The position numbers were made by a program, and so were the translations under genes. From Pseudomonas capeferrum (GTDB taxonomy: Bacteria; Pseudomonadota; Gammaproteobacteria; Pseudomonadales; Pseudomonadaceae), in NCBI RefSeq assembly GCF_013523055.1, contig NZ_JAAMQM010000013.1, positions 62,001 to 126,000 of the forward strand: DNA of 64,000 nt, given 5' to 3'. Below, piece by piece: positions 38,265 to 45,263 of the stretch. The notes beneath the pieces are model-generated. The model was not told the DNA's origin. It worked only from the letters and a program-made list of their open reading frames with translations, and ran no database searches. The stretch's first letter is position 1. Each line of letters opens with the position of its first letter.

Positions 38265-38266
38265 TA

Positions 38267-38800
38267 GGGCATGTCGGTGGATTTTCAGCGCTTTTGAGCT
38301 CGAGCGCCGCCCGCGCGGCGCTTCGCGCGGTGCATGTCGGTAGATCTTCAGCGCTCTTGAGATCGAGCGCTGCCCGCGCGGCGCTTCGCGCGGTGCCTGT
38401 CATGGTATTTTCAGCGCCCTCGGGATCGAGCGCCGCCCGCGCGGCGCTTCGCGGGTAAATCGCATCGGCGAACCGCCGCTCCCACATTTGTTGCACCGTG
38501 CCATGGCCTGATAGACCGAGGTCTTAGCCTTTGTTTGTATGGCAAGGATAATGAGGTGCCAACAACAGCCTTGATGCAGTCTTTAGCCATACACCAAGGC
38601 TGACAACTCCAATCTCACAGGCCATGGCACGGTGCAACAAATGTGGGAGCGGCGGTTCGCCGATGCGATTTACCCGCGAAGCGCCGCGCGGGCGGTGCTC
38701 GATCCCGAGGGCGCTGAAAATACCATGACAGATACCGGGCGAAGCGCCGCGCGGGCGGCGCTCGATCTCAAGAGCGCCGAAAATCCAATGGCATGCGCAT
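38267..38800. repeat. Very long inverted repeat with tandem GC-rich units
   Basis: Left arm 38397-38510 and right arm 38617-38730 are inverted copies over 114 bp with about one mismatch. Weaker pairing continues outward to about 38270 and 38795. Each arm carries 60-65-bp tandem units built on GAGCGCCGCCCGCGCGGCG, CTTCGCG and TTTTCAGCGC. The 106-base centre has its own stem (AGCC..TGTATGGC / GCCATACA..AAGGCT). The whole lies between a broken GNAT and an MFS gene; no protein is encoded. Confidence 0.8.
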
Positions 38801-38817
38801 GACAGCCATCACGCCAC

Positions 38818-39996
38818 TCAAGCACACTTCCCTACCACACGCCGCGCAACCAGGGGCCGAGCCAGGCTAAGCAGCCCCAACAAGGCCATCCCCGCCCCCA
38901 CCCACAACGGCGCACGCAAGCCAAGACCAGCATCGATCACCGTCCCTCCCGCCCAACTGCCTAGGGCCAACCCCGCGGTAATCACTGAAGTGTGCAGCGT
39001 ATTGACCAGCGCCCCCGGCTCGGCGGCTTTCATTACGCGCGCGACCATCGCTGGATTCAAGGCTACACCGGTCAGCCCGAGGGCGATGAAGCAGGTGAGG
39101 TTCAACCAGCGCGCATCGCCGGCCAGGGCAAAGCCGCCCAGCGCCAGGACCATCAAGGCCAGACCCCAGCCCAGCGCGGGGATGGTATGCCGATCGGCGA
39201 TGCGTCCCACCAGCATGTTGCCCAGCAGGTTCGCCACGCCATACAGCGCCAGCAAAGGCGCGACCTGACCCGGAGCCACGCCTACTTCCTGGATCAGGAT
39301 TGGCGTGCAGTAGCTGAAGGCGGCGAAGGTAGCGCCGATGATCAGGCCGCTGGTGAGGTAGGCGCCCCAGAGGCTGCGATTGTGCAAGGTCGCCCATTGC
39401 CGAGCCAGCGCGGGCGCGCTCGTCGCTTCGTCCTTGGGCAAGCGCAAGGCCGTCAGTGCGGTACAGATCAGGGCCAGCCCTACCACCAGCCAGGAGCTGG
39501 CGCGCCAGCCGAAATGCTGTTCGACCCAGGCGGTCATGGGCACCCCGGCGACAGGTGAGAGCATCAGCCCGGCCAGTACCACCGACATCGCCCTGCCCCG
39601 TGACTGGAGAACGACCAGGCCGGCGCAGAGGGTCATGCACAGGCCGATGCAGGCGGCGCTGGCCACGCCCATCAGGATGCGCGCCAGGACCAGCACGGCG
39701 TAGCTTGGCGCCGCGGCTGCCAGTGCCCCGGCTGCCACATAGACAAAAAGAAGTCCCACCAGCGCCTGTTTGCTGCCGATGCCGCGCGCCAATAGCAGGA
39801 CCGTGACGGGTGGGCCGCCGAGGGCCATGCCCAAGGCATAGAAGGCGATGAGGTTACCGACCTGGGCCAGGCTTACCGAAAAGGCATCGGCCAGGGCCGG
39901 CATCATGCCCGCGATCATGAATTCGGCGGTGACCAGCGAGAAGATCGTCAGGCCCAGCAGATAGACCGTGGAGGGCAGTTTAGAGCGGTTCGTCAT
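38818..39996 (-). CDS. DHA1-type MFS efflux transporter
   Basis: 392 aa, 12 expected membrane segments. LTIFSLVTAEFMIAGMMPALADAF (first helix) and YALGMALGGPPVTVLLLARG belong to the AraJ/Cmx-like branch of MFS exporters; the second half starts near LHNRSLWGAYLTSGLIIGA. All expected blocks are present and no frame breaks are seen, unlike several neighbours. The substrate cannot be told. Its stop lies next to the long inverted repeat. Confidence 0.8.
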   Translation of the reverse strand: MTNRSKLPSTVYLLGLTIFSLVTAEFMIAGMMPALADAFSVSLAQVGNLIAFYALGMALGGPPVTVLLLARGIGSKQALVGLLFVYVAAGALAAAAPSYAVLVLARILMGVASAACIGLCMTLCAGLVVLQSRGRAMSVVLAGLMLSPVAGVPMTAWVEQHFGWRASSWLVVGLALICTALTALRLPKDEATSAPALARQWATLHNRSLWGAYLTSGLIIGATFAAFSYCTPILIQEVGVAPGQVAPLLALYGVANLLGNMLVGRIADRHTIPALGWGLALMVLALGGFALAGDARWLNLTCFIALGLTGVALNPAMVARVMKAAEPGALVNTLHTSVITAGLALGSWAGGTVIDAGLGLRAPLWVGAGMALLGLLSLARPLVARRVVGKCA

Positions 39997-40225: not shown

Positions 40226-40318
40226 GCCGATGGCCCTGTCGCGGGACAAGCCCGCTCGCCACCGGAGCGCGCCGAGCATCAGTGGCGAGCGGGCTTGTCC
40301 CGCGACAGGGCCATCGGC
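40226..40318. repeat. REP-type hairpin, perfect 37-bp arms
   Basis: Arms 40226-40262 and 40282-40318 are perfect inverted copies containing CTGTCGCGGGACAAGCCCGC, with a 19-base loop. It lies in the otherwise empty 39997-40433 interval. Sequence style matches intergenic REP elements of Pseudomonas; the core GGACAAGCC also occurs in the 45-kb inverted repeat. Confidence 0.75.
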
Positions 40319-40921: not shown

Positions 40922-41343
40922 ATGCACACGCCTAACCTCATCCTGCTGTACGTCGAAGACCCAGAGCGCAGCCGTCTTTTCTACGAGCAATTGCTCAAGC
41001 GAAGCGCTTCGTCAGCCTTTCCGACTATGTCGCCTGATCGCTCGGTAACGGACTGAGCTTGGGCTTGTGGTCGGCAAGCGCCAGGGATTTCGTCTCGGGA
41101 GAACAAGACCACCGTGGCGAGCTGGGTCTGCTGGTGGAAGATGACGAACAGGTCCGCCACCTCCACGACGAGTGGAGCGCGGCGGGCCTGGTCATCGAAC
41201 AACCATGCTCAATGCCGACCTGCTCGGGGGCAAGCTCGAGCCGACTGTCAGCTCGATGCTCGCTCGCACACGCGGTGTTCGGCCTTACCTTCGTGGCGTC
41301 GGACCCCGATGGGCCTCGGCTGCGGGTGTGTATACCCGACTGA
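40922..41343 (+). pseudogene. VOC-family (glyoxalase/bleomycin-resistance-like) remnant
   Basis: MHTPNLILLYVEDPERSRLFYEQLLKR.ASSAFPT opens a VOC protein that shifts frame near 41030. It resumes as GLWSASARDFVSGEQDHRGELGLLVEDDEQVRHLHDEW, then is interrupted after VIEQP by about 20 extra codons, and ends in AVFGLTFVASDPDGPRLRVCIPD. The 3' end is duplicated in each unit of the following tandem array. Confidence 0.72.
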
Positions 41344-42745
41344 GCGGCCCAGTGGCACATCTTCTCACCGCAGGGATCAGCGGCTACGCATCATCGCCAG
41401 CGCCAGGAGGACGGCCAGCGCCGCATGAAACAGCCCTTATCTCATTGATTCAGCAGATCATTGTGGGAGCGGGTTTACCCGCGAAGCAGGCACCGCGGTA
41501 TCTGGCACCGGCTTCGCCGGTGTTCGCGGGTGAACCCGCTCCCACAAGAGATGCACTGCCCTTGCAGGCCTTGCTCTCTGCGCGATAGCGGCGAGTGAGG
41601 AATTTTTACTACCAGATGGCCGTGGCAATCCAGCCCGACACACGCGGCGTCCGTCTTACCTTCGTGGCGCTGGACCCCGATGGGCATCGGCTGCGGGTGT
41701 GTACACCCGACTGAGCGGCCTAGTGGCACAGCTTCTCACCGCAGGGTCAGCGACTACGCATCATCGCCAGCGCCAGGTGGACGGCCAGCGCCGCATGAAC
41801 AACTTTATCTCATTGATTCAGCAGATCATTGTGGGAGCGGGTTTACCCGCGAAGCAGGCACCGCGGTATCTGGCACCGGCTTCGCCGGTGTTCGCGGGTA
41901 AACCCGCTCCCACAAGAGATGCACTGCCCTTGCAGGCCTTGCTCTCTGCGCGTTAGCGGCGAGGGAAGAATTTTTATTATCAGATGGTTGTGGGAATCCA
42001 GCCCGGCACACGCGGCGTCCGTCTTACCTTCGTGGCGCTGGATCCCGATGGGCATCGGCTGCCGGTGTGTACACCCGACTGAGCGGCCTAGTGGCACCTC
42101 TTCTCACCACAGGGATCAGCGGCTACGCATCATCGCCAGCGCCAGAAGACGGCCAGCGCCGCATGAAACAATCGCTATCTCATTGATTCAGCAGATCATT
42201 GTGGGAGCGGGTTTACCCGCGAAGCAGGCACCGCGGTATCTGGCACCGGCTTCGCCGGTGTTCGCGGGTGAACCCGCTCCCACAAGATATGCACTGCTCT
42301 TGCAGGCCTTGCTCCGTGCGCGTTAGCGGCGAGGGAAGAATTTTTATTATCAGATGGTTGTGGGAATCCAGCCCGGCACACGCGGCGTCCGTCTTACCTT
42401 CGTGGCGCCGGACCCCGATGGGCATCGGCTGCCGGTGTGTACACCCGACTGAGCGGCCTAGTGGCACCTCTTCTCACCACAGAGATCAGTGGCTACGCAT
42501 CATCGCCAGCGCCAGGAGGACGGCCAGCGCCGCATGAAACAACCTTTATCTCATTGATTCAGCAGATCATTGTGGGAGCGGGTTTACCCGCGAAGCAGGC
42601 ACCGCGGTATCTGGCACCGGCTTCGCCGGTGTTCGCGGGTGAACCCGCTCCCACAAGAGATGCACTGCCCTTGCAGGCCTTGCTCTCTGCGCGATAGCGG
42701 CGAGTGAGGAATTTTTACTACCAGATAGCCGTGGCAATCCAGCCC
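41268..42745. repeat. Four-copy tandem array of a unit of about 370 bp
   Basis: The landmark TTACCTTCGTGGCG recurs at 41285, 41656, 42024 and 42394, and GTGGGAGCGGGTTTACCCGC at 41463, 41831, 42201 and 42572, giving periods of 368-371 bp. Each unit holds the 3' end of the VOC gene, a spacer, a double REP hairpin (arms GTGGGAGCGGGTT../..AACCCGCTCCCAC) and the last codons of the MFS gene in reverse. Open frames inside are repeat artefacts. This is not CRISPR: units are far too long. Confidence 0.85.
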
Positions 42746-43540
42746 AATGCACCGAGCCCCAGATGGCCGATGCCCAGCCCACCGAGGATCGCGCCCAGGC
42801 CGATACCAGCATTGGCCGCCGAGATGTTCAGGGTAGCGGCCAGCGCCTGCGCCTGAGCGCCTGCCTGCATGACTCGCACTTGGCACACCGGGAACAGTGC
42901 CGTGTAGGCGACACCCCAGAGCACCAGAGCGCCGATGAGCCAAGCGTGCTGCCCCGCCAACGGCACGGCGGCGGTCATGCCGATACCCAGCAGCACCAGG
43001 AAGAACACCATCGCGCCCAAGGGGCTGCGGTCCACCCACTTGCCGCCCCACTGGTTGCCTAGCATGCCGACGGCGCCGAAGCCCATGAGCCACCAGCCGA
43101 CCTGGCTGGGCCCGACGCCTGCCAAACTCTGGAGGATATCCGCCAGGTAGGTGTAGGCCGTGAACATGGCGGTGAAGGTCAGGACCGACAGCAACACATG
43201 GGCAAGGAAGCGTGGCTGCTTGAGAATATCGTTCTGTTTCCCACCTTTGGCCCTGGCCGGCGACGAGGGCAGCGTCGGCATGCACAATTGCATCAGCCCG
43301 GCGATGACCAGCGAGATGGCCGCCAGGACCCAGAAGCAGCCGCGCTAGCCCAGGGTATCCGCCGCGACGGTGCCCAGCGAAACGCCGAACACCAGGGCCG
43401 CAGAAATCCCCAGGTAAACGCGCGATACGGCCTTGCCGGACTGGCCCGGACCGGCCAATTGACTCGCCGTTTCACTCGCGGTCCCCAGAACACCGGCAAG
43501 CCGAGCGCGGGGATGAACCGCGCCACGGCCATGACCCAGA
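42718..43540 (-). pseudogene. MFS transporter remnant (5' deleted, frameshift, stop codon)
   Basis: The C-terminal half is intact in frame from CFWVLAAISLVIAGLMQLCM to GLGALGWIATAIW. Just upstream the reading LADTLG-TAG-RG shows a TAG where a Trp codon is expected (about 43347). Further upstream SQLAGPGQSGKAVSRVYLGISAALVFGVSLGT is in frame with it, but WVMAVARFIPALGLPVFWG is in another. Nothing of the first membrane segments remains beyond about 43540, where LysR sequence begins. Confidence 0.78.
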
Positions 43541-43542
43541 TC

Positions 43543-44080
43543 CTTTTCCGATCGCTTCGTCGATCCTGTCCATGAAGGTATCGATATCGTCGTGCGCATC
43601 GGCGAGGGCGACGCCTGGCCCGCGGCACTGGGACGTCGGTACATCGGCGCCCAGCGCCTGGTCTTCTGCGCCGCGCCGCGTTACCTCGCCGAGCACGGGT
43701 TCCCTGCCGCCATCGCGGAGCTGGAAACGCACCACTGCATTGCCTATGGCCAAGCGGATGGGCAGGTGGGCCCATGGTTCTTCAAGGGCCGCCAACCGGG
43801 CGATCAGGAGCGCAGAGTGGTGCATCCGAGGATCGCGGTAGGCGATGGAGAAGGCGAAGTGTCGGCCACGCTCGAAGGTTACGGCATTGCCCAACTGCCG
43901 ACCTGGCTCGTGCAGCGGCATCTGGACGAAGGCAGGCTGGTCGAGGTATTGCCGGAACTCGCCACCGAGGGTCTGCCGATGAACCTGGTGTGGTTGAAAG
44001 CGCGTGAGGCATTACCGAAAGTCAGTACCTTGCTCGATTATCTGCAAGAACGGCTGGCACCTCATGGCCGTGTGGGGTAA
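43543..44080 (+). pseudogene. LysR-family regulator remnant (DNA-binding domain deleted)
   Basis: An open frame from FSDRFVDPVHEGIDIVVRIG through APRYLAEHG, YGIAQLPTWLVQRHLDEGRLVEVLP to LDYLQERLAPHGRVG covers the effector-binding domain of a LysR regulator. The helix-turn-helix and first part of the effector domain (about 110 residues) are missing and the sequence abuts the 5'-truncated MFS gene on the other strand. A short ORF from GTG 43592 is possible but unlikely to be functional. Confidence 0.75.
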
Positions 44081-44944: not shown

Positions 44945-45025
44945 TGCGGGGGGTATGACCAAGAGGGTTGAGGCAACCAGTAGGTATCGCGTTTCCTCCT
45001 CTAGCTTGGTAACTGGACTATCTGC

Positions 45026-45198
45026 ATTGCCAGGCGACCCCTTCGGGCTCGATCGCAGGACAAGCCAGCTCGCCACCGGTTAGCGGCAGCTCACGCCTAT
45101 GTGGCAAAACATGGGCTCGCTAGCAAATTTGTGTGCACCGCTAGCCGGTGGCGAGCTGGCTTGTCCTGCGATCGAGCCCGAAGGGGTCGCCTGGCAAT
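45026..45198. repeat. Perfect 54-bp inverted repeat between alkB and csgG
   Basis: Arms 45026-45079 and 45145-45198 are exact inverted copies (left arm starts ATTGCCAGGCGACCCCTTCG) with a 65-base loop. It fills most of the 44945-45263 gap between convergent genes and could terminate both. It shares the REP-like core GGACAAGCC with the 40.2-kb hairpin. Confidence 0.8.
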
Positions 45199-45263
45199 GA
45201 ATTCAGCCCAACCAACCCGATAGCGGTGGAAACATCGATGTAGTACCACCCAAAACGTCTACC

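Follow-up and report, generated by a model that had tools for sequence, protein, structure and literature searches.

An ordered tandem cluster of four REPINs that carries the ends of two convergent pseudogenes in Pseudomonas capeferrum

Inverted pairs of repetitive extragenic palindromic (REP) sequences, known as REPINs (REP doublets forming hairpins), can be arranged in tandem. In P. fluorescens SBW25, a genome with REP-associated tyrosine transposases (RAYTs), 16 ordered tandem REPIN clusters have been described, the largest of which comprises four REPINs over more than 700 bp (Bertels and Rainey 2011, PMC3116915). As to the origin of such clusters, the same report infers a second mechanism of cluster formation. 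Tandem REPIN-like doublets are also reported in Escherichia coli (PMC3686654), where five of the six REPINs of a tandem cluster were lost in a mutation-accumulation line, and local REPIN amplification and loss have been treated as a normal process in a modelling paper (PMC8049555). We have analysed a stretch of 64,000 nucleotides of P. capeferrum DNA (hereafter the window; assembly GCF_013523055.1, contig NZ_JAAMQM010000013.1, positions 62,001 to 126,000), in which four tandem units each carry a REPIN between the 3′ ends of a VOC-family gene and a convergent MFS gene. We consider this array to be an ordered tandem REPIN cluster that has grown stepwise, with a probability of about 85%. The genes from which the duplicated flanks derive can be identified, so that each of the two breakpoints can be located to within a few bases; the flank differences reveal some of the order of events, and a copied insertion lies beside one breakpoint.

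Tandem Repeats Finder (TRF) detected a single array at 41266-42745, with a period of 370, 4.0 copies, 93% matches and a score of 2573. TRF and alignment of the copies place copy 1 at 41266-41637, copy 2 at 41638-42005, copy 3 at 42006-42375 and copy 4 at 42376-42745, with aligned lengths of 372, 368, 370 and 370 bp, offsets of 368-372 bp between successive copies and a total of about 1.48 kb. The order within the unit is the same in all copies, namely the VOC 3′ end with its stop codon, noncoding DNA, the REPIN and the MFS tail. The VOC part amounts to the last 78 bp of the gene in copy 1 and 77 bp in copies 2-4, and the unit ends with the last 28 bp of the convergent MFS gene. The VOC body precedes copy 1, and copy 4 continues into the body of the MFS pseudogene. 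At all three internal joints the MFS tail (CCAGCCC) is directly connected to the VOC tail, with one base different in the first joint. A preliminary description of this DNA had proposed a fourfold tandem amplification of a unit in which a REP pair separates two convergent gene ends, and this is borne out by both TRF and the copy alignment. Head-to-tail units of flank, REPIN and flank are the arrangement by which an ordered tandem REPIN cluster is recognized.

The genome assembly is a 5.97-Mb draft in 95 contigs in which other REPIN arrays break contigs, as might be expected if the array were an artefact of assembly. This is hardly credible for the array as a whole, however, since every copy has differences that no other copy shows and a 189-kb contig encloses the array. 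Because of the 95-contig draft and the other REPIN arrays that end contigs, the true number of copies could be higher than four.

The REPIN is 87 bp long, consists of two inverted REPs and is present in all four copies, at 41461-41547, 41829-41915, 42199-42285 and 42570-42656. Exact REP cores start at 41466/41523, 41834/41891, 42204/42261 and 42575/42632 in copies 1-4, and all eight exact cores of this class in the window fall within the array. When folded as single-stranded DNA, each REPIN forms a long hairpin, with an energy of -40 kcal/mol in copies 1, 3 and 4 and -42.3 kcal/mol in copy 2 (z from -9.2 in copy 1 to -9.5 in copy 2), and for each copy 0 of 200 shuffles were equally stable. The REP starts with GTGG followed by GAGCGGGTTTACCCGC, as read by eye, which fits the rule of a GT(A/G)G start adjoining a palindrome (PMC3686654). 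With up to two mismatches allowed, 248 REP sites of this class (121 + 127) were found genome-wide, and the reversed-pattern control gave 0. The core probably resembles the P. putida type. A second class of REP (GCGGGACAAGCCCGC type) is represented by a palindromic pair at 40238-40310 of the window.

The preliminary description had also proposed a search for RAYT genes in the genome. Two IS200-like genes are present, and both match the REP-associated tyrosine transposase family NF047646 (153 and 162 bits, cut-off 80). The RAYT on contig C39 has REPs of the array class on both sides, with 1-2 mismatches. For the RAYT on C30, no REP of this class was found in the surrounding 4.5 kb; it is flanked by a different REP-like sequence, as seen by eye, which the second-class pair mentioned above resembles. 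From these sequences, the REPIN class of the array probably goes with the RAYT on C39, which would be its putative mobilizing enzyme. Both RAYT genes also adjoin tandem repeats of other kinds. On C39 (L187 1722-2168), two inverted REPs beside the gene enclose a 32-bp minisatellite with about 14 copies, and on C30 (L188 1327-1884) a 111-bp array with 5 tandem copies takes in the RAYT 3′ end and extends downstream of it, again a case of gene-end repeats but without REP matches of the window array class.

The presence of RAYTs and of intact REPINs raises the question of whether the tandem copies are the work of the transposase, for example through copying of an intermediate, single-stranded or circular, in which flanking DNA was included, and the second cluster-forming mechanism inferred by Bertels and Rainey (PMC3116915) would be in line with this. 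The unit, however, ends 195 columns away from the REPIN on one side and 90 columns on the other, within genes rather than at REP ends, and much of the duplicated DNA lies outside the element. We therefore regard an origin by RAYT activity as distinctly unlikely.

The four copies had been described as nearly identical. This is correct for the REPIN and its near edge, where the longest invariant run reaches 94 columns and the pairwise REPIN difference is 0-1.1%, but elsewhere pairs of copies differ by 1.1-14.6%. Variable columns number 1/87 in the REPIN versus 37/279 in the flanks (Fisher p 0.0004), or 1/87 versus 28/280 at equal copy numbers (p 0.005). In the left flank (195 columns), pairwise differences are 4.1-8.8%, with copies 3 and 4 closest and copy 1 furthest; in the right flank (90 columns) they are 1.1-14.6%, with copies 1 and 4 nearly alike and eight changes common to copies 2 and 3. 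This contrast between left and right distances was matched in 1 of 20,000 permutations of columns between the sides, and the flanks are thus mosaic. The site patterns that set copy 1 against copies 2-4, and copies 2 and 3 against copies 1 and 4, were rejected as sole proof of recombination, since both fit one tree, and for this reason the distance permutation is the better support for mosaicism. A conflict with the second of these patterns comes only from sites that set copies 1 and 2 against copies 3 and 4 (p 0.018).

Copies 2-4 had further been thought to keep a better VOC 3′ end than the parental locus. A better end, DPDGHRLRVCTPD or similar, is indeed kept in these copies; they also have in common a 1-nt deletion and changes upstream, however, whereas copy 1 retains the AVFGLTF of intact homologues. 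An Arg codon has been lost at the VOC end from copies 3 and 4, and one more codon from copy 4, and the parental VOC gene is likewise broken. Since copies 2-4 share derived changes, they descend from a copy that had already changed. A single recent amplification that made four copies at once, with the differences being young mutations, would readily account for the head-to-tail order, for the nearly uniform internal joints and for the 57-nt insertion described below, which is still identical to its source. It is nevertheless highly improbable, because divergence between copies reaches 14.6% in the flanks and is far lower in the REPIN, the copies are related differently on the two sides of the REPIN, and derived changes are common to copies 2-4. 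The view that the amplification was recent does not hold for flanks that differ by 1-15% and have different histories to the left and right of the REPIN, and one recent fourfold event is not supported. The data rather suggest that the array grew stepwise and that its copies exchanged sequence within the invariant run at the REPIN.

Other tandem REPINs in this genome were checked in 29 genome stretches, chosen mostly for REP matches. They contain at least six other arrays with three or more evenly spaced REPINs and repeated flanking DNA, a minimum number since the stretches are not a whole-genome survey. These are C21 (five and a half REPINs), C9, C28 and C4:28k (five each), and C38 and C35 (three each); in addition, C31 carries a REPIN pair, and C4:129k, C44, C30 and C22:225k carry arrays with single or degenerate REPs. 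The REPIN was less variable than the spacer in four of the six, two of them with p under 0.05, as judged at equal copy numbers: C21 (3/87 versus 19/93, p 0.0005), C9 (2/87 versus 12/100, p 0.01), C28 (2/87 versus 13/187, p 0.16) and C35 (1/74 versus 8/105, p 0.08). All six pooled gave 21/505 versus 72/849 (p 0.0025). The C38 array includes, at three places, about 60 bp from the end of the 1010-aa reading frame next to it, and gene-end duplication is thus not unique to the window. Contig C37 ends with a match to the C28 unit (99.6% over 238 bp), and C29 begins with a match to the C38 unit (95.8% over 357 bp), the contact points on C28 and C38 being contig starts; the assembly therefore seems to be broken inside arrays, and copy numbers in the draft are minima. 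REPIN arrays can thus be broken or under-counted in draft assemblies.

Directly before the array, the VOC pseudogene contains a 57-nt insertion (41206-41262, + strand), recognized by comparison with VOC homologues and by its match to an LD-carboxypeptidase gene. Window positions 41203-41263 are 100% identical over 61 bp to positions 88117-88177 of contig C3 of the same genome (G000:C3:88117-88177; E 1e-24), within an open LD-carboxypeptidase gene with both Peptidase_S66 domains. Matches to the same stretch, of 88-90% over 55-63 bp, occur in seven further genomes of the genus. From this identity, the intact LD-carboxypeptidase gene is taken as the likely source. The insertion is in phase and adds a net 57 nt at a place where the homologues have Pro directly followed by Leu, no VOC codon having been lost, and its joints share no more than 3 + 1 nt. 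Between its end and the first base common to the four copies lie 3 nt. The insertion and the array start thus fall at nearly the same position in the VOC gene, a nearness which, although noticed after the fact, suggests a break there as the common cause and error-prone break repair at this edge. As a control on how common copied insertions are, 20,000 bp and 19,951 bp of the window were searched, and among the matches listed (40 of 265 and 40 of 390 first-look candidates scored) none exceeded 90% identity (48 bp) once two repeat blocks, at about 38266-38823 and 44989-45247, had been set aside.

These two blocks have features of their own. The one at about 44989-45247 is a repeat with many matches across the genome, and the other holds 63-bp tandem repeats at 38269-38453 and about 38632-38818, matches itself inverted and recurs on many contigs of the genome. 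At C1:151.6k and C22:78k, blocks of the 63-bp type flank a pair of the array's REP class. The 63-bp block looks like a separate dispersed composite repeat.

The genes next to the array are all pseudogenes. The VOC-family (glyoxalase-like) remnant (40922-41343, + strand) shows, relative to intact homologues (which read ...IEQPLARAVFGLTFVALDPDGHRLRVC... and match Pfam Glyoxalase), a change of frame at about 41020-41028, a stop codon at 41035-41037 and the 57-nt insertion; the window's own fragment reached no Pfam or NCBIfam family. Comparison with relatives and matches to Pfam MFS_1 and LysR_substrate, respectively, identify an MFS pseudogene (42718-43540, - strand) and a LysR pseudogene (43541-44080, + strand), both lacking their 5′ parts, which meet at about 43541 through a deletion that amounts to about 0.8 kb when measured against such relatives as L040-L044. 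This state bears on the possibility that the array is kept for a cell function, for instance as a terminator of two convergent transcripts or a binding site for gyrase. Although the position between convergent gene ends and the conservation of REPINs relative to their flanks, here and in four of the six other arrays, would suit such a role, the adjoining VOC and MFS genes and, beyond MFS, the LysR gene are all broken, and gyrase binding is not known beyond E. coli REPs, for which it is named in PMC3686654. A function of this kind is very unlikely.

The MFS gene has matches at E 1e-70 in 30 of 398 genomes of the genus, its own included. No VOC relative was found by tblastn (E 1e-3) near the MFS gene in 105 MFS loci (L040-L144, with L010-L038 left out, some places represented twice and flanks of 1.5 kb or up to 6 kb), nor any MFS relative within 1.5 kb of five VOC homologues. 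From this comparison with other species, the VOC-MFS association may be specific to this lineage. The part of the unit outside the REPIN has matches in 4 of 392 relatives, its own genome included, and in the other three only over 43-67 bp; in a plasmid collection, seven records matched, with gene homologues only.

We propose that the array started from a REPIN of the C39-RAYT class between two convergent genes, both of which are now pseudogenes. In a first step, a segment of some 370 bp, with its limits within the VOC end and the MFS end, would have been duplicated head-to-tail, most likely by error-prone, replication-linked repair favoured by the REPIN hairpin; this break-repair origin, and with it the role of the hairpin, we infer only tentatively. 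From two copies on, homologous exchange centred on the identical REPIN core would have led to four copies with shuffled flanks, exchange between copies being proposed because the relationships change across the REPIN. A literature search for REP with unequal crossing found no paper. The gene ends within the units would be drifting passengers, and the REPIN would be kept nearly constant either through selection acting on the element or through local conversion. We have also considered that the whole array is a scar of replication-linked break repair at the hairpin with template switching. The broken VOC end would then have been extended by repeated switching into head-to-tail copies of the REPIN segment, and the 57 nt copied once from the unlinked LD-carboxypeptidase gene before rejoining without VOC loss. 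If so, tandem REPIN clusters would be records of template switching in bacteria, but we regard this as unlikely.

Several points weigh against the stepwise growth and break repair proposed here. A pre-array state was not found in the genomes searched, truly conflicting sites are few (3:1 versus 0:8, p 0.018), and the permutation test of mosaicism assumes independent columns. The insert has remained unchanged from its source while the copies diverged, and may thus have arrived after the first duplication. Of 18 other array edges, 5 were tested and showed no comparable insertion, the best matches elsewhere being 78% over 114 bp (right of C21) and 87% over 54 bp (left of C9) among the 40 of 229 candidates scored; a copied insertion is therefore not a general mark of such arrays. 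Lastly, at equal copy numbers the contrast between REPIN and spacer is absent in C4:28k (7/73 versus 7/97) and C38 (6/97 versus 13/267), and with all five REPINs of C4:28k counted it runs in the opposite direction (21/73 versus 7/97, p 0.0003).

In E. coli, bacterial interspersed mosaic elements (BIMEs) have short linkers, whereas each unit in the window contains about 280 bp of neighbouring gene and intergenic DNA. The window array resembles the E. coli BIMEs and REPIN clusters, as described in PMC3686654 and PMC8049555, in its tandem doublets, and in E. coli the copy number is changeable. With SBW25, as far as described in PMC3116915, it has in common the ordered tandem REPINs, the RAYTs in the genome and the presence of several such clusters per genome. 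It differs in length from the largest ordered cluster there (about 1.48 kb versus over 700 bp), its flanks hold the coding ends of two pseudogenes, and a copied insertion adjoins it. Since ordered tandem REPIN clusters have been described in SBW25, the window array belongs to a known kind, with unusually readable breakpoints.
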